This document shows, one piece after another, positions 30,985 through 55,307 of a DNA stretch of 64,000 nucleotides. The notes beneath the pieces are model-generated. The model searched no databases and had not been told where the DNA came from. It was given only the letters and a program-made list of their open reading frames with translations. Location: contig JASCNX010000002.1 in the NCBI GenBank assembly GCA_029968055.1, forward strand, positions 248,001-312,000, given 5' to 3'. Position numbers and translations under genes: made by a program. Each line of letters opens with the position of its first letter. Position 1 is the first letter of the stretch. This DNA is from Xenophilus aerolatus (GTDB lineage Bacteria; Pseudomonadota; Gammaproteobacteria; Burkholderiales; Burkholderiaceae_C).

Positions 30985-31218
30985 TCAGGCGGCGGCCAGC
31001 CAGTAGGTGCTGTTGAAGGGGCTGCTCATGCGCAGCGCCAGCGGGGACACATCCACCAGCTTGTCGGTCGGCATCTTCTCCGCCGCGGGATCCGCGTTCA
31101 GGTCGATGCCATCCAGGGGCGCGGGTTGCGCGCTGTGGGCACCCTGGATCTGGGCCTCGTTGGCCCGTTCTGCTTGGCCGGCTTGTGCAGAACGGGCTAC
31201 AGAAAAGAATAGAAGCAC
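30985..31218 (-). CDS. Possible 77-residue hypothetical protein after barstar
   Basis: This frame opens with GTG at 31218, overlapping the last 22 bases of the barstar gene in another frame, and stops just before the terminator. The N-terminal third is low-complexity, but the last 45 codons show the GC-rich third positions of real genes and end 'SSPFNSTYWLAAA'. It could be a translationally coupled small protein or a remnant. An internal ATG at 31074 is an alternative start. No family recognised. Confidence 0.35.
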   Translation of the reverse strand: MLLFFSVARSAQAGQAERANEAQIQGAHSAQPAPLDGIDLNADPAAEKMPTDKLVDVSPLALRMSSPFNSTYWLAAA

Positions 31219-31616
31219 CGGAAGGGCACCTTGCGGTCCCCCCAGTAGTCCGAGGCGTCGCGGAAGATGTCCAGGAGCTGCTCGCGCGCTTCCTTGTCGA
31301 ACTTGGCGTTGGCCGGGATCTGCTCGAGCACCACGACGAAGCCCGGCTGCGGGCCCGATTTGTGCAAGGGATCGGTCATGCAGTCGTACAGCGCATCGAA
31401 GTTCTTGCCGAAGTGCGCCGGGAAGGTGAATTGCTGCGCGATCAGGTCGAGCACGTCCTGCTTGCTCTGGGCATTCGCCAGGTTGGCATAGAGGAAATGC
31501 TGGCCCGACGCATGGGCTGCCTCCTGAAGGTCGCTGACGCGAAAGGCCCGAATCGACTGAACGATGTTGGGCCGAACGCCACGAAGGGACTGATTCATCT
31601 CCGCTGTTCTTTCCAT
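31197..31616 (-). CDS. Barstar-family RNase inhibitor
   Basis: A 139-residue intracellular inhibitor. The barstar core is recognisable as 'FPAHFGKNFDALYDCMTD', matching the barstar helix and loop that plug the RNase active site (barstar NWDALWDCLTG). 'GFVVVLEQI' and 'WGDRKVPFRCFY' form the flanking strands. An N-terminal extension of about 40 residues precedes the core. ATGs at 31616 and 31598 are both possible; I use 31616. It lies 59 bases downstream of the secreted RNase gene on the same strand and protects the cytoplasm from it. Confidence 0.9.
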   Translation of the reverse strand: MERTAEMNQSLRGVRPNIVQSIRAFRVSDLQEAAHASGQHFLYANLANAQSKQDVLDLIAQQFTFPAHFGKNFDALYDCMTDPLHKSGPQPGFVVVLEQIPANAKFDKEAREQLLDIFRDASDYWGDRKVPFRCFYSFL

Positions 31617-31675
31617 GGTGATCAAAACTTCTCCCGAACGCGTGGGTGCGTCACCCCTGCCTGTGCGATCGTCCA

Positions 31676-32089
31676 TCATGGAACGATCTTCCTGAAACTT
31701 GCGTAATGGTCCGCCGTGTACCAGCACGCCTGCGGCGTCGTCGGCGGCCCGCCGCACACGATGCGACGCGCACCGCGCGTGCGGGCACCGGGCGTGTCCA
31801 CGGTGTATTCGCGGTAGTGCCCACGCCGCTCGCGCGGAAGCAGGCGCTCCCGGTTGCCGAACACGGTGCCGTCCTTGTCATGCCGGAACGGCCCGCCGTC
31901 GAAGATCGCGCGGTACGTTGTCTGACCCTGGAGAGGCAATTGCGACAGCGCGATCGTCTCGTCGCGGTCCGGGAATTCCCGGGCTTGGACGGACTGGCTC
32001 GGCCCCAGAACCCCACCGAGGGCCGCCACGAAAACGCCAGTGAGCGCAAACTTGGAGACTTTGGACGAGATCGAGGCGGCAAACGCCAT
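31676..32089 (-). CDS. Secreted barnase/RNase Sa-type ribonuclease
   Basis: A 137-residue guanyl-preferring microbial RNase (N1/T1/U2 superfamily) with a Sec signal peptide (core ALTGVFVAALGGVLG, cleavage after VQA near 36). The mature part has 'GTVFGNRERLLP' near 74-85 and catalytic Glu94 in HYREYTV. Arg108/Arg109 lie in GARRIVCGG, His128 in TADHYASF, and Cys112 and Cys122 can bond as in RNase Sa relatives. All residues needed for catalysis are present, so the enzyme should be active. The barstar gene follows directly. Role: extracellular nutrient RNase or antibacterial toxin. Confidence 0.92.
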   Translation of the reverse strand: MAFAASISSKVSKFALTGVFVAALGGVLGPSQSVQAREFPDRDETIALSQLPLQGQTTYRAIFDGGPFRHDKDGTVFGNRERLLPRERRGHYREYTVDTPGARTRGARRIVCGGPPTTPQACWYTADHYASFRKIVP

Positions 32090-34809: not shown

Positions 34810-35856
34810 ATGGCCCTGATGGATTTCATCAAGAAGCAGTTCATCGACATCATCCAGTGGACGGAGACCGGCGACGGCACGCTCGCCTGGCGCTTCCCCA
34901 TGCAGGAGATGGAGATCCAGAACGGCGCCTCGCTCACGGTGCGCGAGTCGCAGATGGCCGTCTTCGTCAACGAAGGCCAGGTGGCCGACGTGTTCGGTCC
35001 GGGCATGTACAAGCTGACGACGCAGACGCTGCCCGTCCTCACCTACCTCAAGAACTGGGACAAGCTATTCGAGTCGCCCTTCAAGAGCGACGTCTACTTC
35101 TTCAGCACGCGCCAGCAGGTCGACCAGAAGTGGGGCACGCCGCAGCCCATCACCATCCGCGACAAGGACTTCGGCGCCGTTCGGCTGCGCGCCTTCGGCA
35201 ACTACGCCTTCCGCATCGCCGACCCGAAGCTCTTCCACACCGAGATCTCGGGCACGCGCGACACCTACACCGTGGCCGACCTCGACGGGCAGTTGCGCGG
35301 CCTGGTGCTGCAGAACATCAGCACCGCCATCGCGGCCAGCGGCGTGCCCTTCCTCGACCTGGCGGCCAACCAGATCGAGTTCGCCAAGGCCCTTGCGGCG
35401 CAGCTGAACCCCGAGTTCGGCAAGCTGGGCATCAGGCTCGAGACCATCACCGTCCAGAACGTCTCGCTGCCCGAGGAACTGCAGAAGGTCCTCGACCAGA
35501 AGATCGGCATGGGCATGGTCGGCAACGACATGGGCAAGTTCATGCAATACCAGACCGCGCAGGCGATTCCCAAGTTCGCCGAGGGCGCGGCCGGCGGCGG
35601 CGGCATCGCGGGCGACGCCATGGGGCTGGGCGCCGGCGTGGCGCTGGGCCAGGTGCTGGCGCAGAACCTGCAGCAGGGCCTGAACCCCAACGCCGCCGCG
35701 CAGGCGGCCGTGGCTGCCACGGCACCGGCCGCCACCGTGAGCCCGAACGATGTCATGGCCACGCTCGAAAAGCTGGGCGAGCTCAAGACCAAGGGCATCC
35801 TCACCCAGGAAGAGTTCGACGCCAAGAAGGCCGAGCTGCTCAAGAAACTCGTCTGA
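34810..35856 (+). CDS. SPFH-domain protein with C-terminal SHOCT motif
   Basis: A 348-residue cytoplasmic protein of the YdjI-like SPFH (band 7/flotillin-related, 'virion core protein') branch: no membrane span, SPFH fold in about 25-240. A Gly/Ala/Gln-rich linker (about 255-310) leads to a C-terminal SHOCT motif ('LEKLGELKTKGILTQEEFDA' near 322-341). SPFH proteins assemble into membrane-associated rings or cages; SHOCT is a short oligomerisation module common in membrane-stress proteins. GGAGAGTGGAC precedes the ATG. It heads the 34.8-41 kb gene string. Confidence 0.85.
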   Translation: MALMDFIKKQFIDIIQWTETGDGTLAWRFPMQEMEIQNGASLTVRESQMAVFVNEGQVADVFGPGMYKLTTQTLPVLTYLKNWDKLFESPFKSDVYFFSTRQQVDQKWGTPQPITIRDKDFGAVRLRAFGNYAFRIADPKLFHTEISGTRDTYTVADLDGQLRGLVLQNISTAIAASGVPFLDLAANQIEFAKALAAQLNPEFGKLGIRLETITVQNVSLPEELQKVLDQKIGMGMVGNDMGKFMQYQTAQAIPKFAEGAAGGGGIAGDAMGLGAGVALGQVLAQNLQQGLNPNAAAQAAVAATAPAATVSPNDVMATLEKLGELKTKGILTQEEFDAKKAELLKKLV

Positions 35857-35957
35857 GCCGCCCGCTGCCATGTTGTCGATCGCGGCCTGCGCCCGCTGCA
35901 CGGGCGCTGCGGCCCCGCAACGCTTGAAACTCCGGCCGGCCGCGCCGTGCCTGCGCC

Positions 35958-37448
35958 ATGGCTGAGCCGGGCGGCACGCAACGCGTCTACCGTGCGCCCT
36001 GTCCCGGCTGCGGTGCGCCGGTCGAGTTCCGCTCGGCGCAGTCGGCCTTCGCCGTCTGCCCCTATTGCCAGAGCACCGTGGTGCGCCAGGGCGAGCAGCT
36101 CGCGCGCATCGGGAAGATGGCAGAGCTGTTCGACGACTTCAGCCCGCTGCAGCTCTTTGCCACGGGCCGCATCCAGGACAAGGCCTTCACCCTCGTCGGG
36201 CGTCTGCAGTACGCCTACGAGGGCGGCCGCTGGACCGAATGGGTGGCCCAGATCAACGGCACCGAGGACCGCACCGGCGTCCTGAGCGAGGACAACGGCG
36301 CCTACGTCTTCTCGCTGCCCTATGCGCTGCAGCAGCCCGCGCCGCCCGCAGACCAGTTGCGCGTGGGCGCCACCCACACCTTCAACGGGCAGGGCTACAC
36401 CGTCGCGTCCAACGAGGAAGTGAAGCTGGTGTCGGCGCAGGGCGAGCTGCCCCGACTGCCAGAACTCGGCAAGCCCTTCCGCGTCGTCGAACTGCGCAAC
36501 GAGAAGGGCCTGGTCCTGAGCCTGGACTACGACTCGGCCCCGCCGACGGCCTACCTGGGCCGCTCGGTGGAGCTGGACGACCTGAAGATGGCCGGGCTGC
36601 GCGACGAGTCCGCCAAGGAAGAGAAAGGCCGCGGCTTCGCGTGCCCCCACTGCGGCTCGCCGGTCACGCTCAACTTCGCCGACAGCAAGAGCGTCACCTG
36701 CCCGTCGTGCAAGAGCATCATCGACACCAGCGCCGGGATCGGCGGGGAGCTGAAGTACGCCACCCAGAACGAGCCGGTGCAGCCCCTCATCGCGCTGGGC
36801 ACGCCCGGCACGCTGCAGGGCGCGCAGTGGCAGGTGGTCGGCTTCCAGCACCGCATGGGCCAGGAGCCCGGCGACGACGAGCAGTTCGGCTGGGACGAAT
36901 ACCTGCTCTACAACCGAAAGCGCGGCTTCAGCTTCCTGGTCGATGCGAGCGACGGCTGGAGCATGGTCAAGCCCGCGACCGGCGCACCGGTCGTCTCCGA
37001 CGGCGGCCAGACGGCGCGCTACCTCGGCCGCACCTACCGGCAGAAGTACGCCTACGAGGCCGAGACCACCTATGTCGCCGGCGAGTTCTACTGGCAGGTG
37101 CAGCGCGGCCAGAAGACCAGCAACCGCGACTACGGCGAGCCCAAGGGCGGCCTGCTGTCGATGGAACGCAGCGCCAACGAGCTAACCTGGTCCTACGGCA
37201 GCCGCATCGACAGCAACGCCGTGGCGGCGGCGTTCAAGCTCGATGCGAAGAAGGACATGTTCAAGCGCGCCGATGCGTTGCCGGTCAGTGCCGCGTCCAG
37301 CCTGGGCTGCGGCACCATCATCCTCATCGTCGTGGTGATCGTCATCCTGCTGATCATCCTGTCCACCTGCTCGAGTTCGTCGGGCAGCGGCTACCGCAGC
37401 TCGGGCGGCTCCTACGGGGGCTATTCGAGCGGCGGGGGCCACAAGTAG
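35958..37448 (+). CDS. Zinc-ribbon / DUF4178 membrane protein
   Basis: A 496-residue protein with an N-terminal zinc ribbon (CPGCG ... CPYCQ, about 15-37), a beta-rich DUF4178-type domain, a second zinc ribbon (CPHCG ... CPSCK, about 231-256), and another DUF4178-type domain (about 275-440). One membrane span (IILIVVVIVILLIILS) follows near 455-470, then a Ser/Gly/Tyr-rich tail. It is thus a tail-anchored cytoplasmic protein. DUF4178 has no known biochemistry but recurs beside DUF350 and spermidine-synthase-like genes. 101 bases after the SPFH gene. Confidence 0.85.
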   Translation: MAEPGGTQRVYRAPCPGCGAPVEFRSAQSAFAVCPYCQSTVVRQGEQLARIGKMAELFDDFSPLQLFATGRIQDKAFTLVGRLQYAYEGGRWTEWVAQINGTEDRTGVLSEDNGAYVFSLPYALQQPAPPADQLRVGATHTFNGQGYTVASNEEVKLVSAQGELPRLPELGKPFRVVELRNEKGLVLSLDYDSAPPTAYLGRSVELDDLKMAGLRDESAKEEKGRGFACPHCGSPVTLNFADSKSVTCPSCKSIIDTSAGIGGELKYATQNEPVQPLIALGTPGTLQGAQWQVVGFQHRMGQEPGDDEQFGWDEYLLYNRKRGFSFLVDASDGWSMVKPATGAPVVSDGGQTARYLGRTYRQKYAYEAETTYVAGEFYWQVQRGQKTSNRDYGEPKGGLLSMERSANELTWSYGSRIDSNAVAAAFKLDAKKDMFKRADALPVSAASSLGCGTIILIVVVIVILLIILSTCSSSSGSGYRSSGGSYGGYSSGGGHK

Positions 37449-37487
37449 CGCCCCCGCGTACACCCAACCTTCCACCGGAGAGACCGC

Positions 37488-37709
37488 ATGCCGAAAATCG
37501 AATGGCTCCAGCCCATGGCGATCCTGGGCACCTTGCTGTATGCCCTGATCGGCGTGGCGATCTTCTGGATCGCCTTCATCGTCATCGACAAGATCACCCC
37601 CTACGACCTGTGGGGCGAGATCGTCGAGAAGCACAACAAGGCCCTGGCCATGGTGGTGGCGGCCATGTGCCTGGGCATCAGCATCATCGTCGCCGCAGCG
37701 ATCCATTGA
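37488..37709 (+). CDS. DUF350 small inner-membrane protein
   Basis: Seventy-three residues, two membrane spans (about 11-33 and 52-71) around a short loop, starting MPKIEWLQPMA. It matches one half-unit of DUF350, the family of E. coli YjfL, whose operon also holds PspA-like and glutathionylspermidine-synthase-like genes. GGAGAGACCGC before the ATG is a good ribosome site. 39 bases after the DUF4178 gene, so the same operon. Confidence 0.85.
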   Translation: MPKIEWLQPMAILGTLLYALIGVAIFWIAFIVIDKITPYDLWGEIVEKHNKALAMVVAAMCLGISIIVAAAIH

Positions 37710-37736
37710 AGGTGGCCGGCGCCGGCCACCCCGGAG

Positions 37737-37797
37737 CCGTTCACGCTGAGCCTGTCGAAGCGCCGCGCCAGGGCTTCGACAGGCTCAGCCCGAACGG
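37737..37797. repeat. Dispersed inverted repeat (25-bp arms)
   Basis: Arms 37737-37761 and 37773-37797 are inverse complements with two mismatches (core GAGCCTGTCGAAGC / GCTTCGACAGGCTC) and an 11-base loop. This GCTTCGACAGGCTCAGC unit is a familiar dispersed intergenic palindrome in many proteobacteria. It sits between the DUF350 and SpeE-like genes and could trim or terminate the operon message. Confidence 0.85.
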
Positions 37798-37813
37798 TTG
37801 AGGGCTCCTTGCC

Positions 37814-39397
37814 ATGAACAAACCCCTCGCGCCGCCGGTCGACGCGGCCGCACTGCCTGCTGCGCCCGCCCGCCGCGCGGGCCCCTCCCCCGTCGCCATC
37901 GCCCTGCTCGCCAGCGTCTTCGTCGTCGCCGCCTGCGGGCTGGTTTACGAGCTGAGCGCGGCGGCGCTCAGCTCGTACCTGCTGGGCGACTCGGTGCTGC
38001 AGTTCAGCACCATCATCGGCACCTACCTGTTCGCCATGGGCGTGGGCTCGTGGCTGTCGCGCTACTTCGAGCGCCAGCTGCCCGCGCACTTCCTGCGCAT
38101 CGAGCTCATGGTCGCCCTCGTCGGCGGCTTCCTGCCGGCGCTGCTCTTCATCGCCAACGCCTACGTGCCGGGCGCCTTCCGCCTGCTGCTGTACGGCCTC
38201 GTGGTCGTGGTCGGCACGCTGGTGGGGCTGGAGATTCCGCTGGTCATGCGCATCCTTCGGCGCGACATCGTGCTCAAGGACCTGGTCTCGCAGGTGCTGA
38301 CCTTCGACTACCTCGGTGCGCTGGCCGTGTCGGTGGCCTTCCCGCTGCTGCTGGTGCCGCAGCTGGGCATGATCCGCACCGGGCTGCTCTTCGGCCTCAT
38401 GAACGCCGCCGTGGGCGCCTGGGCGCTGTGGCTGTTCCGGCACGAGCTGCGGCGCCTCGGTGCGCACGCGTTGGCCTGCATGCTCGCGCTGGCAGCGCTC
38501 GCGGCCGCCTTCGCCTTCGCGGACCGCATCACGACCCTGGCCGAAGACAAGTTCTACCAGGACCGCATCGTCTTTGCCGCCACCTCGCCCTACCAGCGCA
38601 TCGTGGTGACGCGGGGCAGCGCCGGGCACCGCCTGTTCCTCAACGGCAACTTGCAGTTCGCCGAGCGCGACGAGTACCGCTACCACGAGGCGCTGGTGCA
38701 CCCCGCCATGGCTGCCCACGGCGCACCGAAGAAGGTGGCCGTGCTCGGCGGCGGCGACGGCATGGCCGTGCGCGAGATCCTCCGGTACCCGTCGGTGGAA
38801 TCGGTGACGCTGGTCGAGCTCGATCCGAACATGACCAAACTGTTCACCGCGCACGAGACGCTGGCCGCGCTCAACGGCCACTCGCTCTCCTCGCCCAAGG
38901 TGAAGGTCGTCAACGCCGATGCGTTCAAGTGGTTGCAGGAGGCAGACGACCTTTTCGACGTCATCGTCGTCGACTTCCCCGACCCCACCAACTTCGCCAT
39001 CGGCAAGCTCTACACCAACAGCTTCTACGCCCTGCTCGACCGCCGCCTGGCCGCCAGCGGCTACGCCGTGATCCAGACCACCTCGCCACTGGTGGCGCGC
39101 AAGAGCTTCTGGACCGTGGCGCAGACCATCGAGTCCGTCGGCCTCGTGGCCACGCCCTACCACGCGCACGTGCCGAGCTTCGGCGAGTGGGGCTACGTCA
39201 TCGCCAGCCGTCGCCCCTGGCGCCGGCCCGACGCGCTGCCGGCGGGCCTGCGCTTCCTCACGGCCGACACGCTGCCCCTGCTCTTCGACTTCCCCAAGGA
39301 CATGGCCCGCGTGCCGGCCGAGGTGAACCGGCTGTCGAACCAGGTGCTGGTCACGACCTACGAGCAGGAGTGGGGCAAGGTCGGGGTCACGCATTGA
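37814..39397 (+). CDS. Membrane-fused spermidine-synthase-like aminopropyltransferase
   Basis: A 527-residue protein in two parts. The N-terminal 235 or so residues hold about seven membrane spans. The C-terminal 290 residues are a spermidine-synthase fold with the decarboxy-SAM binding motif 'VAVLGGGDGMAVREIL' near 307-322, 'LVELDPNMTKLF' near 335-346, and 'VIVVDFPDPTNFAIGKLY' near 384-401 (catalytic Asp). The SpeE fold suggests it moves an aminopropyl or similar group from decarboxylated SAM; the membrane part suggests a membrane or envelope substrate. Often annotated simply as polyamine aminopropyltransferase. Followed 7 bases later by the FAD gene. Confidence 0.87.
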   Translation: MNKPLAPPVDAAALPAAPARRAGPSPVAIALLASVFVVAACGLVYELSAAALSSYLLGDSVLQFSTIIGTYLFAMGVGSWLSRYFERQLPAHFLRIELMVALVGGFLPALLFIANAYVPGAFRLLLYGLVVVVGTLVGLEIPLVMRILRRDIVLKDLVSQVLTFDYLGALAVSVAFPLLLVPQLGMIRTGLLFGLMNAAVGAWALWLFRHELRRLGAHALACMLALAALAAAFAFADRITTLAEDKFYQDRIVFAATSPYQRIVVTRGSAGHRLFLNGNLQFAERDEYRYHEALVHPAMAAHGAPKKVAVLGGGDGMAVREILRYPSVESVTLVELDPNMTKLFTAHETLAALNGHSLSSPKVKVVNADAFKWLQEADDLFDVIVVDFPDPTNFAIGKLYTNSFYALLDRRLAASGYAVIQTTSPLVARKSFWTVAQTIESVGLVATPYHAHVPSFGEWGYVIASRRPWRRPDALPAGLRFLTADTLPLLFDFPKDMARVPAEVNRLSNQVLVTTYEQEWGKVGVTH

Positions 39398-39404
39398 ACG
39401 CCCC

Positions 39405-41042
39405 ATGACCTTGCGCCGCCGCGATTTCATCGGCGCCTCCGCCGGCACACTGGCGCTGGCCGGCTGCGAGTCGCGCCCGCCCATCGACGGCGGCTTCACC
39501 GGCATCGACGTCGCGCGCGGCCATGCCTGGCGCGACGGCGCGGGCCGGGGGGCCGCGCCGGCCGAAACGCGGCGCACGCGTGTGCTGATCGCCGGGGCCG
39601 GTGTGGCCGGGCTGGCCGCCGCGCGGGCGCTGCGCCTGGCCGGCACCGAGGACTTCGTGCTGCTCGAGCTGGAAGACGGCGCCGGCGGCAACGCCCGCGG
39701 CGGCCGCTTGCACGACATCGCCTGCCCGCTGGGTGCGCACTACCTGCCGACGCCCGGCGATGCTGCGCACGAGGTGCAGGACCTGCTCGAGGAACTGGGC
39801 CTGCGCCGCCGCGTCGCCGGCCGCTGGGAATACGACGAGCGGCACCTGTGCCACAGCCCGCAGGAGCGCCTCTTCTTCCGCGGCGAGTGGCAGGACGGCC
39901 TGCTGCCGCTGCATGGGGTGGCCGCCGGCACGCTGGCCCAGTACCACCGCTTCGCGCAGCGCGTCGAGGCGCTGCAGCGCGAGGCGCACTTCACCATCCC
40001 GGCCTTCCGCGCGCCAGTGACGACCGCCGCCGTGGCGCTGGATGCCGAGCCCTTCGCCGCCTGGCTGGCGCGCGAGGGCCTGGACGACCCGCAGCTGCGC
40101 TGGTACCTCGACTACTGCTGCCGCGACGACTACGGCGCCGGCGTCGCGCATGTCTCGGCCTGGGCCGGCATCCACTACTTCGCGAGCCGCCACGGCTTCC
40201 ATCCGCCGGGCGACGACGGCGCGGACGGCGAGCGCGAGGCGGTGCTGACCTGGCCCGAAGGCAACGGCTGGCTCACGCAGCGCCTGGCCGCGCCCCTGGG
40301 CGAGCGACTGCGCGCCGGCCACGCGGTGCTGCGCATCGCCGAGGTGCGGCACGGCGTCGAGGTCGACGCCTGGGATGCCGCCGCGCGGCGCGTCGTGCGC
40401 TGGCAGGCCGAGCGCTGCATCGTCGCGCTGCCCGCCTTCATCGCGGCACGCGTGGTCGAGCAGGCGCCGGACTTCCTGCGGCGGGCCGCCGCGGGCTTGC
40501 AGTACGCGCCGTGGCTGGTGGCCAACGTGCACCTGCGCGCGCCGCTGCAGGACCGGCCCGGCGCCGCGCCGAGCTGGGACAACGTGGTCTACGGCAGCCG
40601 CGGCCTGGGCTACGTCGATGCGCGCCACCAGACGCTGGACCCGACGCCGCGCGCCACGGTGGTCAGCTGGTACCGGCCGCTCGGCCCCAGCGGCTTCGAC
40701 GGCGCCACCGCGGCCGAGGGGCGCCGCCGCCTGCTCGACGCGCCCTGGAGCGCCTGGCGCGACGAACTGCTGGCCGAGCTGTCGGCGCCGCATCCCGACC
40801 TGGCCGACGTCGCGACGCGCATCGACATCACGCGCTACGGCCATGCGATGGCGATCCCCACGCCGGGGCTGGCGAGCCGAATCGGCCATTTGCGCCTGTC
40901 CCGTGGGCGCGGGCAGCCGTCCGAAGAGGAACAGCCGGCCCCGATCGCCGGTCGGATCACCTTCGCCCATGCCGACTGGGCCGGCTACTCCATCTTCGAA
41001 GAGGCCTTCACGCGCGGACATCTGGCGGGCTCGGCGGCCTGA
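39405..41042 (+). CDS. Tat-exported FAD-dependent amine-oxidase-like protein
   Basis: A 545-residue protein with a twin-arginine signal (RRRDFIG at 4-10) that ends LALAGC, a lipobox, so a Tat-exported lipoprotein is predicted. The mature part has the FAD-binding 'VLIAGAGVAGLAAARALRL' near 59-77 and 'LLELEDGAGGNARGG', and a C-terminal 'ITFAHADWAGYSIFEEAF' typical of flavin amine oxidases/protoporphyrinogen-oxidase-like proteins. Immediately after the SpeE-like gene, so a polyamine-derived substrate is an attractive but unproved idea. Convergent with the aldo/keto reductase gene. Confidence 0.85.
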   Translation: MTLRRRDFIGASAGTLALAGCESRPPIDGGFTGIDVARGHAWRDGAGRGAAPAETRRTRVLIAGAGVAGLAAARALRLAGTEDFVLLELEDGAGGNARGGRLHDIACPLGAHYLPTPGDAAHEVQDLLEELGLRRRVAGRWEYDERHLCHSPQERLFFRGEWQDGLLPLHGVAAGTLAQYHRFAQRVEALQREAHFTIPAFRAPVTTAAVALDAEPFAAWLAREGLDDPQLRWYLDYCCRDDYGAGVAHVSAWAGIHYFASRHGFHPPGDDGADGEREAVLTWPEGNGWLTQRLAAPLGERLRAGHAVLRIAEVRHGVEVDAWDAAARRVVRWQAERCIVALPAFIAARVVEQAPDFLRRAAAGLQYAPWLVANVHLRAPLQDRPGAAPSWDNVVYGSRGLGYVDARHQTLDPTPRATVVSWYRPLGPSGFDGATAAEGRRRLLDAPWSAWRDELLAELSAPHPDLADVATRIDITRYGHAMAIPTPGLASRIGHLRLSRGRGQPSEEEQPAPIAGRITFAHADWAGYSIFEEAFTRGHLAGSAA

Positions 41043-54063: not shown

Positions 54064-54795
54064 TCAGCGCTGGAGCTGCGCGAGCCGCTCCGGCGTGCCG
54101 ACATCGGTCCAGCGGCCGGTGTACAGCTCGGCGGTGATGCGGCCGTCGTCCATGGCGGCCCGCAGGATCGGCGCCAGCGCCGCCCGCGCACCGTCCGGGT
54201 TGCCCGGTGCGATGCTGCAGTACGGCGGCGCGAACAGCGCGGCGCGGTACAGGCCGATGGTCGAGAAGGTGTAGCGCGGCACGCCGGCGTCGGCCGGCAC
54301 GTTGCGCGCCCGGCCGTCCTCGCACAGGCCGAAGTCGCCCTTCGGGTTGTGCGCCGGATTGGGCACCAGCCACAGATGAGCCAGCGCATCGCCCGCCCGA
54401 AAGCGGGCCATCGCTGCCGGCTCGAAGCGGAAGTCCGGCGCGAACACATCGCCGGCCGCCACCCAGAACACATCGTTGAGCAGGGGCAGGGCGCGCACGA
54501 TGCCGCCGGCCGTCTCCAGCGCGCCGCCATAGTCGCGGCCCTCGTCGGAGTAGGCGATCGCCAGCGCGCCGTGCCCGTCCCATGCGGCCTGTGGGCCGAA
54601 ATGGCTCGAAATCTGCTCGCCGAGCCAGGCGGTGTTGACCACCAGCCGCGTGACGCCGCCGGCGGCCAGCGCCTCCATCGGCCATTGCATCAGCGGCTTG
54701 CCGTGCACCGGCAGCAGCGGCTTGGGTGTGTGGTCGGTCAGCGGCCGCATGCGCTCGCCGCGGCCCGCGGCCAGCACCATGGCGGCGGCGCGCAT
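54064..54795 (-). CDS. murU: Nucleotidyltransferase, MurU-like (NTP_transferase family)
   Basis: A sugar-1-phosphate nucleotidyltransferase of about 243 residues with the signature 'MVLAAGRGERMRPLTDHTPK' near the N-terminus, 'KPLLPVHGKPLMQW' and an Asp of 'VAAGDVFAPDF'. Size and motifs match MurU, which makes UDP-MurNAc from MurNAc-1-phosphate in cell-wall recycling; a general mannose-1-phosphate guanylyltransferase-like label is also possible. Start at 54795 avoids overlap with speD; 54810 is an alternative. Its functional partner amgK is at 24.9 kb. Confidence 0.78.
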   Translation of the reverse strand: MRAAAMVLAAGRGERMRPLTDHTPKPLLPVHGKPLMQWPMEALAAGGVTRLVVNTAWLGEQISSHFGPQAAWDGHGALAIAYSDEGRDYGGALETAGGIVRALPLLNDVFWVAAGDVFAPDFRFEPAAMARFRAGDALAHLWLVPNPAHNPKGDFGLCEDGRARNVPADAGVPRYTFSTIGLYRAALFAPPYCSIAPGNPDGARAALAPILRAAMDDGRITAELYTGRWTDVGTPERLAQLQR

Positions 54796-54799
54796 CCCC

Positions 54800-55189
54800 T
54801 CAGCCGGCATGCGCGGGAACCCGGCCGCGGTGCAAGGCCTGGCGGACCGTCTCGCCGGGCGCGAACAGCGCCACCAGCATGTCGAGCAGCGCCTGCGCCT
54901 TGGCGGAATGGTCGCCGCCGAAGTTGCACACGTACACGTCCAGCGTCACGGCCCGGCGTTCGGGCCACGTGTGCACGCACAGGTGCGATTCGGCCAGCAG
55001 CACCGTTGCCGTCACGCCGCCGGGGCCCTCGGCCGTGTCGGGAAAGCGATGGAAGAGCTCGCCCACCGGCTGCAGGCCGGCATGTCGGACGGCGGCCGCA
55101 CAGTGGGCGCCCAGCGCCTGGGCGTCGACCAGCCAGCGCGGTGCGCAATGGCAGTCGTGGAGGTCGGCGGTGAGGTGCAGGCCCTGCAT
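54800..55189 (-). CDS. speD: S-adenosylmethionine decarboxylase proenzyme
   Basis: Makes decarboxylated SAM, the aminopropyl donor for spermidine. The 129-residue proenzyme is of the short prokaryotic (class 1B) type and self-cleaves before Ser68 in 'LLAESHLCVHTWPE' to form the pyruvoyl group; 'LDVYVCNFG' carries the conserved Cys. The start MQGLHLTADLHDC at 55189 follows a TAGAGT hexamer by 7 bases. Co-directional with and 4 bases from the murU-like gene. Together with the SpeE-like enzyme at 37.8 kb it is the only polyamine gene in the window. Confidence 0.93.
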   Translation of the reverse strand: MQGLHLTADLHDCHCAPRWLVDAQALGAHCAAAVRHAGLQPVGELFHRFPDTAEGPGGVTATVLLAESHLCVHTWPERRAVTLDVYVCNFGGDHSAKAQALLDMLVALFAPGETVRQALHRGRVPAHAG

Positions 55190-55196
55190 GCCGCGG

Positions 55197-55202
55197 ACTC
55201 TA
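55197..55202 (-). promoter_or_regulatory. -10-like hexamer 7 bases before speD start
   Basis: TAGAGT on the minus strand, 4 of 6 to consensus, ends 7 bases before the speD ATG; no ribosome site between. Compatible with a leaderless start. Confidence 0.35.
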
Positions 55203-55307
55203 GCAGCCCACCGGCGTCGGGCCGCCCGCGCGGTGCGGACGGGTGGCAATACGCCATGTCCGCGCGGGGTCCGGCGGGCCTTGCCGGCTGCGCTTCACCC
55301 CGCTCGC

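Follow-up and report, generated by a model that had tools for sequence, protein, structure and literature searches.

Why would a bacterium place a spermidine-synthase-like enzyme behind a row of membrane segments and encode it next to an exported flavoprotein of amine-oxidase type? This question is raised by a stretch of 64,000 nucleotides of Xenophilus aerolatus (GenBank assembly GCA_029968055.1, contig JASCNX010000002.1, positions 248,001 to 312,000), hereafter the window, in which positions 34810-41042 hold five genes, all on the plus strand. They encode an SPFH protein with a C-terminal SHOCT domain, a DUF4178 protein, a DUF350 protein, a membrane-bound homologue of the aminopropyltransferase SpeE and a flavin adenine dinucleotide (FAD) protein. 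A preliminary description of the window had proposed these five co-directional genes, with two spans in DUF350; all the open reading frames are present at the positions given in Table 1, their names are backed by Pfam and NCBIfam profile matches, and DUF350 forms one two-span unit.

Our tentative answer, which we consider quite possible and a little short of probable, is that the cassette is a membrane-scaffolded module for the aminopropylation of the cell envelope with its own oxidoreductase, which resembles the spermidine dehydrogenase SpdH. The evidence, as read from sequence, comprises the gene unit, its co-occurrence across genomes, the donor pocket, a changed acceptor loop and histidines of SpdH type. 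SpeD, an S-adenosylmethionine decarboxylase (AdoMetDC) encoded in the same window, would make decarboxylated S-adenosylmethionine (dcSAM) in the cytoplasm, and the membrane SpeE would put the aminopropyl group on an amine that is part of the inner membrane or periplasm, or is located there, and not (or not only) on putrescine. The membrane part of SpeE would need to pass dcSAM across, the catalytic domain being outside in the predicted topology. The FAD protein, which is predicted to be exported by the twin-arginine translocation (Tat) route and is usually lipid-anchored, would oxidise the new secondary amine and hand the electrons to a predicted heme b, and this oxidation would either remove or mature the aminopropyl tag. 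The SPFH-SHOCT, tail-anchored DUF4178 and DUF350 proteins would hold the enzymes together, in the place that PspA and its partner occupy in gammaproteobacterial relatives. We infer the acceptor, the order of the reactions and their purpose, phosphatidylethanolamine being a guess for the first of these. SpdH cuts spermidine beside its secondary amine (PMC7576179; this paper and PMC11107197, PMC12564564 and PMC11237479 are cited from partial text), and this, we infer, is the type of bond that SpeE would create.

The gene unit recurs beyond close relatives

Two sets of membrane-SpeE neighbourhoods were compared. The first comprised 66 fetched loci (L081-L146) and the window, 67 in all, and the second (L147-L226) came from a scan of a collection in which 522 loci were confirmed and the best 80 taken; ranked against the SpeE of the window, these 80 are biased toward its type. 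A few genomes are common to the two sets. DUF350 was found at 61/67 loci of the first set, DUF4178 at 39/67, the FAD family at 35/67, SPFH at 30/67 and SpeD at 23/67, and the corresponding counts among the best 80 of 522 were 70 for DUF4178, 67 each for DUF350 and FAD, 51 for SPFH and 38 for SpeD. All five genes lay on one strand at 43 of these 80 loci, 32 of them arranged as in the window, nine with SpeD following SPFH and two with DUF350 first and SpeD last; with many loci at contig ends, all these counts are lower bounds. Record titles of the loci include Xenophilus, Variovorax, Acidovorax, Corallococcus, Leptospiraceae, Acidobacteria and Gemmatimonadetes, and acidobacterial or gemmatimonadete titles belong to the nine operons in which SpeD follows SPFH. 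The gene order, for which the preliminary description had suggested a neighbourhood analysis, thus recurs in Burkholderiales, Acidobacteria and Gemmatimonadetes.

A second layout, of gammaproteobacterial type, consists of a lipoprotein-like gene, a DUF350 protein of ~300 residues, SpeE, DUF2170, PspA and further genes. Hidden Markov models (HMMs) built from the partners in this layout matched in the first set at 16/67 loci for PspA, 15/67 for the DUF2170 type and 4/67 for CesT, and at 0/80 of the best 80 of 522 loci. The X. aerolatus genome as a whole gave no match to PspA_IM30 at E 0.001, with the control positive in 9/14, which extends to the genome what had been noted for the cassette.

These relatives, in which PspA stands with DUF2170 or with CesT-like partners, favour an explanation of another kind, namely that the cassette is mainly an envelope-stress scaffold resembling the phage shock protein system, in which SpeE and SpeD would sense or regulate polyamine or S-adenosylmethionine status and would modify nothing. 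Such systems have been proposed to monitor polyamine concentration or aminopropylation (PMC11237479), and SPFH with its zinc-ribbon, tail-anchored DUF4178 partner looks structural. We judge this explanation improbable: PspA was not found in the genome, SpeE keeps its full set of catalytic residues, and in relatives the FAD enzyme and membrane SpeE occur together almost without exception, as described below.

Donor pocket and acceptor loop of membrane SpeE

The cassette encodes the one convincing spermidine-synthase match of the genome (132 bits); a second place reaches 23.0 bits against a Pfam cut-off of 22.9, over 86/186 positions. The SpeE domain matches solved aminopropyltransferases with up to 117 bits, and in front of it stand seven hydrophobic segments, in agreement with the roughly seven spans expected beforehand and unlike the 12-span transporter of NF037959 (fused major facilitator superfamily/spermidine synthase), a model that scored 41.2 bits (cut-off 40), far below NF002956 (693). 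Charged residues invariant in the membrane part are E46, E140, R146 and D165.

We compared 17 distinct membrane forms (18 rows, with the window present twice) with 10 cytoplasmic SpeE proteins at a 60% redundancy cut, after dropping 9/40 fetched cytoplasmic stretches that had no clean reading frame. Residues Y290, H291, D315, D337, D369, D387, D390 and Q421, which we take from known structures to be the donor-pocket and catalytic residues, are kept in 17/17 membrane forms, and the dcSAM pocket, which the preliminary description had named as a weak point of its own proposal should it be lacking, is intact by sequence. The acceptor loop (PSFGEWG) has Phe456 in 17/17 membrane forms where 10/10 cytoplasmic forms have Tyr; in addition, His450 is fixed, Thr423 replaces Gly, and Trp459 is fixed at a position held by Met or Trp in cytoplasmic forms. 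Kept donor residues together with a changed acceptor loop fit an unchanged donor, dcSAM, and a different acceptor. Membrane SpeE shares its dcSAM and catalytic residues with the cytoplasmic enzyme; at the level of sequence, the seven-segment membrane part in front and the acceptor loop argue against normal soluble spermidine synthesis as its only role.

The kept catalytic residues also suit a simpler explanation, in which SpeE faces the cytoplasm as a plain synthase of spermidine or another free polyamine, with the exported FAD protein serving, like SpdH, to break down polyamines outside. That this is the sole convincing SpeE of the genome, that NF002956 is named polyamine aminopropyltransferase and that the FAD protein is SpdH-like would all agree with it. 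The acceptor loop, however, differs at positions fixed in 17/17 membrane forms, the charge bias presented below places the SpeE domain outside, and some relatives (G030, G036 and G041) have a cytoplasmic-type SpeE match besides their membrane SpeE. The reported lack of spermidine and of complementation in a 2019 study, cited below, also speaks against it. On this evidence we regard a plain polyamine synthase as quite unlikely.

The FAD protein resembles the flavocytochrome SpdH

The FAD protein had been described as Tat-exported, probably lipid-anchored and amine-oxidase-like, a characterisation that agrees with its sequence and predicted fold and that we refine, as a prediction, to SpdH-like. 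Its N-terminus (MTLRRRDF...LALAGC) combines a Tat-like signal with a lipobox, whose cysteine is present in 29/36 aligned FAD proteins (alignment A2, the window and 35/56 listed loci); the seven proteins lacking it come from loci titled Acidobacteria-type, Gemmatimonas-type or Leptospiraceae. Start sites in A2 were chosen near the RR motif, which biases the invariant Arg5, and in N-termini cut before GxGxxG, without this choice of starts, the RR motif is found in most rows. The AlphaFold2 model (pLDDT 90.1, pTM 0.90) had putrescine oxidases, monoamine oxidases and SpdH as its best Foldseek matches, and VIA aligned it with monoamine oxidase A (2bxr; Z 28.6, rmsd 3.4, 417 aligned), putrescine oxidase (2yg3; Z 28.1, rmsd 3.4, 421 aligned) and SpdH (7d9j; Z 26.4, rmsd 4.7, 458 aligned). 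Among the 50 matches listed, only the SpdH rows begin at residue 28 of the FAD protein, the rest beginning at residues 53-58.

SpdH of Pseudomonas aeruginosa is a flavocytochrome whose heme b lies at the surface, bound by His54 and His562 (PMC12564564), and it has a predicted twin-arginine leader (PMC11107197). In the FAD family, His40 (GHxLR) and His480 (GHAM) are invariant in 36/36 rows, and both MAFFT and hhalign align them with SpdH His54 and His562, respectively, a correspondence of sequence positions only, in which SpdH residues were numbered by hand. The hhalign comparison gave a probability of 98.9% and E 2e-17 over 505 columns, with two sequences on the SpdH side. This alignment was settled by SpdH homologues taken from genomes. 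Ten stretches were retrieved, and homologues came from two genomes: L249, with 496 bits to 7d9i, and L251, which shares 57% identity with L249. L252 repeats L251 in truncated form, and the remaining candidates are other flavoproteins. Further SpdH homologues in the class were found in 0/151 genomes at E 1e-60. Against solved sequences, a C-terminal profile of the FAD protein returned nothing useful and an N-terminal one, among the best 60 of 79 matches, only other amine oxidases and flavoproteins. From the aligned heme-ligand histidines we predict that the FAD protein is a dehydrogenase with FAD and heme b. Besides these histidines it has in common with SpdH (structures 7D9F-7D9J) the amine-oxidase fold and the twin-arginine leader and, as aligned by way of homologues with Glu there, an Asp at the D282 position; it departs from SpdH in being mostly lipobox-anchored and in having its gene tied to membrane SpeE, as well as in sequence, a matter to which we return when weighing the proposal.

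Co-occurrence across genomes and supply of the donor

Membrane SpeE is present in 34/60 related genomes (fragmentary in G042, split in G019), and the FAD family (E 1e-50) occurs in 32/34 of these vs 0/26 of the others; the two relatives where it was not found beside membrane SpeE are the fragmentary G042 and G034, a genome 65% complete. SpeD was found in 31/34 (not in G034, G035 and G042) vs 4/26, and the four relatives that have it without membrane SpeE all show a cytoplasmic-type SpeE match. Among 398 Pseudomonadota genomes, 44 have a membrane SpeE over the cut-off. AdoMetDC of class 1 was detected in 33 of them and of class 2 in 8 others, which makes 41/44 with either class vs 68/354 in genomes without membrane SpeE. 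The FAD family, for which no more than 3 candidates were scored in each genome, reached at least 484 bits in 13/398 genomes, all among the 44 with membrane SpeE (13/44 vs 0/354), and the next match scored 45.7 bits. The genomes being related, p-values from Fisher tests on these co-occurrences overstate independence.

In the X. aerolatus genome speD is single-copy and lies ~14 kb from the cassette. Its product carries ESHLCVHTWPE, presumably the proenzyme cleavage motif. AdoMetDC makes dcSAM, the aminopropyl donor, and SpeD is the presumable donor enzyme for SpeE. Reportedly, Li et al. found in 2019 an AdoMetDC gene beside a fusion of membrane part and spermidine synthase and a DUF350 gene, with no spermidine and no complementation. 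In several genomes (e.g. G374, G396 and G415) AdoMetDC adjoins a cytoplasmic-type SpeE and may serve both enzymes there. A eukaryote-like class 2 AdoMetDC was seen in 9/398 Pseudomonadota genomes (G358, G220, G272, G345, G372, G374, G384, G396 and G415), 8/9 with membrane SpeE. Around speD of the window, a nucleotidyl transferase gene (54064-54810) overlaps its end by 11 bases, and a transketolase gene lies on the other strand.

A transferase domain predicted outside the cytoplasm

Charges were counted in 80 distinct SpeE sequences from two alignments, A1 (the window and 25/66 loci) and A3 (the window and 54/80 loci). Loops 2, 4 and 6 hold a mean of 9.09 lysines plus arginines per sequence vs 0.40 in loops 1, 3 and 5, the even loops being ahead in 80/80. 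By the positive-inside rule, loops 2, 4 and 6 would be cytoplasmic and the catalytic domain after segment 7 would lie outside, on the same side as the FAD enzyme. Segment 7, with a Kyte-Doolittle value above 1.6 in 71/80 sequences, roughly equals segments 3-6 in hydrophobicity, and the stretch after it has a net negative charge. The weakest is segment 2, above that value in only 9/80, but this leaves unaffected the side assigned to the loops that flank segment 7. The preliminary description had suggested attachment of the group at the membrane followed by oxidation outside; its second half agrees with the predicted export of the FAD protein, and the first is modified here in that the transferase domain is predicted outside too, so that both steps may take place there. 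In a fuller form of this proposal, the seven-span SpeE would carry dcSAM, perhaps against the by-product, to a periplasmic transferase, and the flavocytochrome would remove or mature the tag and pass the electrons to the respiratory chain, envelope charge thus being written and erased outside. We find this complete form somewhat unlikely.

Since dcSAM is made in the cytoplasm, the transferase might instead act on the cytoplasmic side, on a lipid head group or a lipoprotein amine, with the product flipped before its oxidation and segment 7 as an incomplete crossing. The invariant E46, E140, R146 and D165 could hold a head group, and DUF350 or another protein could do the flipping; the hydrophobicity of segment 7, comparable to that of segments 3-6, and the net negative stretch after it stand against such an arrangement, which we rate as unlikely. 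Among the titles listed by word searches of the open-access literature, we noticed none on how aminopropyltransferases are oriented in the membrane and none on aminopropyl lipids; in the partial text of PMC11237479 we found no statement on SpeE topology.

The putative scaffold proteins

For the DUF4178 protein, a double zinc ribbon and a tail anchor had been suggested. Two four-cysteine sets, C15/18/34/37 and C229/232/248/251, are kept without change by all 40 proteins of alignment A4 (the window and 39 one-gene forms, split two-gene forms being excluded) and a C-terminal span is located at ~451-470, which upholds the anchor and the cysteine pattern; zinc-ribbon Pfam models matched below their cut-offs. 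Structure prediction, also proposed beforehand, delivered two beta barrels at residues ~69-204 and ~283-417 within the whole protein (pLDDT 80.7, pTM 0.71) and no solved relative, with no Foldseek match at E <=0.001 and a best VIA Z of 4.0. These fold results establish neither a new fold nor a relative.

DUF4178 proteins vary in length and number. Long ones (L200, L202, L207, L208, L213 and L218) have an extra conserved DNNWLGL...SWSEG stretch between two hydrophobic segments. This stretch and the C48 protein, a separate protein of a cluster that belongs to another SpeE type, are probably one domain, fused or free, because the C48 HMM matches in 24/80 loci (best 46 bits). In many other loci (L196, L199, L203, L206 and others) DUF4178 is split into two genes of ~210 and 430-450 residues. 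DUF350 proteins of the loci L081-L226 come in sizes of ~70, 132-143 and ~280-300 residues, apparently 1, 2 and 4 two-span units.

Organization of the locus

Table 1. Features of the cassette and speD in the window
Feature	Position	Strand	Evidence or remark
SPFH (Band_7_1) protein, C-terminal SHOCT, no clear membrane span	34810..35856	+	Band_7_1 263 bits, SHOCT 34 bits
DUF4178 protein: 2 CxxC/CxxC zinc-ribbon-like sets, 2 predicted beta barrels, C-terminal span, Gly/Ser tail	35958..37448	+	113 bits
DUF350, one two-span unit, 73 aa	37488..37709	+	53 bits over 73 aa
Palindrome like repetitive extragenic palindromic (REP) elements, between DUF350 and SpeE	37735..37797		two 17-bp inverted arms
Membrane SpeE: seven hydrophobic segments, then spermidine-synthase-like domain	37814..39397	+	NF002956 693 bits (cut-off 472), Spermine_synth 129 bits
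SpeE aminopropyltransferase-like domain, residues 248-527, predicted extracytoplasmic	38555..39394	+	donor-pocket and catalytic residues kept
SpdH-like FAD protein, Tat-type leader, lipobox	39405..41042	+	NAD_binding_8 43 bits
FAD protein His40	codon 39522-39524	+	invariant; aligns with SpdH heme b ligand
FAD protein His480	codon 40842-40844	+	invariant; aligns with SpdH heme b ligand
SpeD, S-adenosylmethionine decarboxylase; ATG start probably 55189; motif LAESHLCVHTWPE	54800..55249	-	sole PF02675 match in genome

The DUF350 and SpeE genes are 104 bp apart, and the REP-like palindrome lies in this gap (RNA fold -57.1 kcal/mol, z -8.2); its half-site has 70 copies in the genome vs 0 when read backwards. 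The genes to the left of the cassette are on the minus strand and encode a malic enzyme (phosphotransacetylase fusion) and, at 31197-32089, a secreted-type RNase (PF00545) and an adjoining barstar-like inhibitor (PF01337); the clusters of the last two are both present again in 10/67 related membrane-SpeE loci. An aldo/keto reductase gene on the minus strand forms the right flank.

Relation to described systems

The kind of cluster and the idea of aminopropylation are already known from PMC11237479, which, in its partial text, describes operons of 7TM-spermine synthase, DUF350, DUF4178, PspA-CesT/Tir and a lipoprotein (e.g. AAN56744, AAN56746 and AAN56747), as well as a Band-7/SHOCT variant with AdoMetDC and a polyamine oxidase, and proposes a tie of polyamines, or of the aminopropylation of other substrates, to membrane dynamics. 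Of the open-access papers searched, it alone mentions DUF4178. Like the PspA-CesT/Tir operon, the cassette has membrane SpeE, DUF350 and DUF4178 in one neighbourhood, and AdoMetDC is near some of the gamma-type loci fetched here; unlike it, the cassette is without PspA, DUF2170/CesT and the lipoprotein gene, and has instead SPFH-SHOCT, one short DUF350 unit and the SpdH-like FAD protein. Common to the cassette and the Band-7/SHOCT variant are DUF350-linked operons with Band-7 and SHOCT, with AdoMetDC and with an oxidase. That variant, however, sits in the ATP-grasp (glutathionylspermidine-synthetase-like) group and its Band-7 protein has two spans (PMC11237479), whereas the cassette combines an SPFH protein without a clear span with a membrane SpeE; no ATP-grasp gene is among the cassette genes, the rest of the genome not having been searched for one. 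The ydj operon of Bacillus subtilis has a band-7 protein and YdjG (two zinc ribbons and a span), which recall SPFH and DUF4178, but also PspA and a TPM-domain partner, and aminopropyl genes are not mentioned in the partial description available (PMC11237479). PMC12816370 and PMC12730115 were rejected as DUF350 literature, the term there being DUF3509. New within the literature searched are the SpdH-like heme reading, the pairing of the FAD protein with membrane SpeE, the outward topology and the full SPFH-SpeD-DUF4178-DUF350-SpeE-FAD operon.

Weighing envelope aminopropylation

Several points weigh against an envelope aminopropylation module. The outside location of the SpeE domain hangs on the charge bias and on segment 7 fully crossing the membrane, and an extracytoplasmic dcSAM enzyme would, to our knowledge, be without precedent. 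Cysteine depletion (0.18% vs 1.05% in cytoplasmic SpeE, over the 17 and 10 sequences compared above) was considered as a sign of an extracytoplasmic SpeE domain and rejected after its control failed: SPFH (0.40%) and the DUF4178 barrels (0.20-0.30%) are likewise poor in cysteine, and the exported FAD protein has 0.98%. The FAD protein and SpdH are ~16% identical in the structural alignment, where monoamine oxidase and putrescine oxidase score slightly higher. As for Asp282 and Tyr443, the residues mutated in the SpdH structures 7D9I and 7D9J, Asp242 of the FAD protein is placed at the Asp282 position by both MAFFT and hhalign, although both aligned SpdH homologues have Glu there, and at the Tyr443 position the FAD family has a residue other than Tyr. 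AdoMetDC was not detected in 3/44 Pseudomonadota genomes with membrane SpeE (G096, G116 and G227, the last 71% complete), two of which are listed as 99-100% complete. The FAD family was not found in 31/44 of these genomes, which suggests that oxidation is not essential to the core. Finally, the palindromic repeat splits DUF350 from SpeE, so a single transcript of the five genes is not proven.

AdoMetDC is usually read as a marker of spermidine synthesis. Among the related genomes examined here it mostly tracks membrane SpeE, which brings with it a dedicated exported oxidoreductase. The analysis makes three statements directly checkable, namely at which membrane face SpeE works, the presence of heme in the FAD protein and the use of an acceptor other than putrescine. 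If an envelope component is indeed aminopropylated and the tag oxidised, the cassette would represent a new bacterial route to setting envelope charge, and its product would have a simple mass signature.

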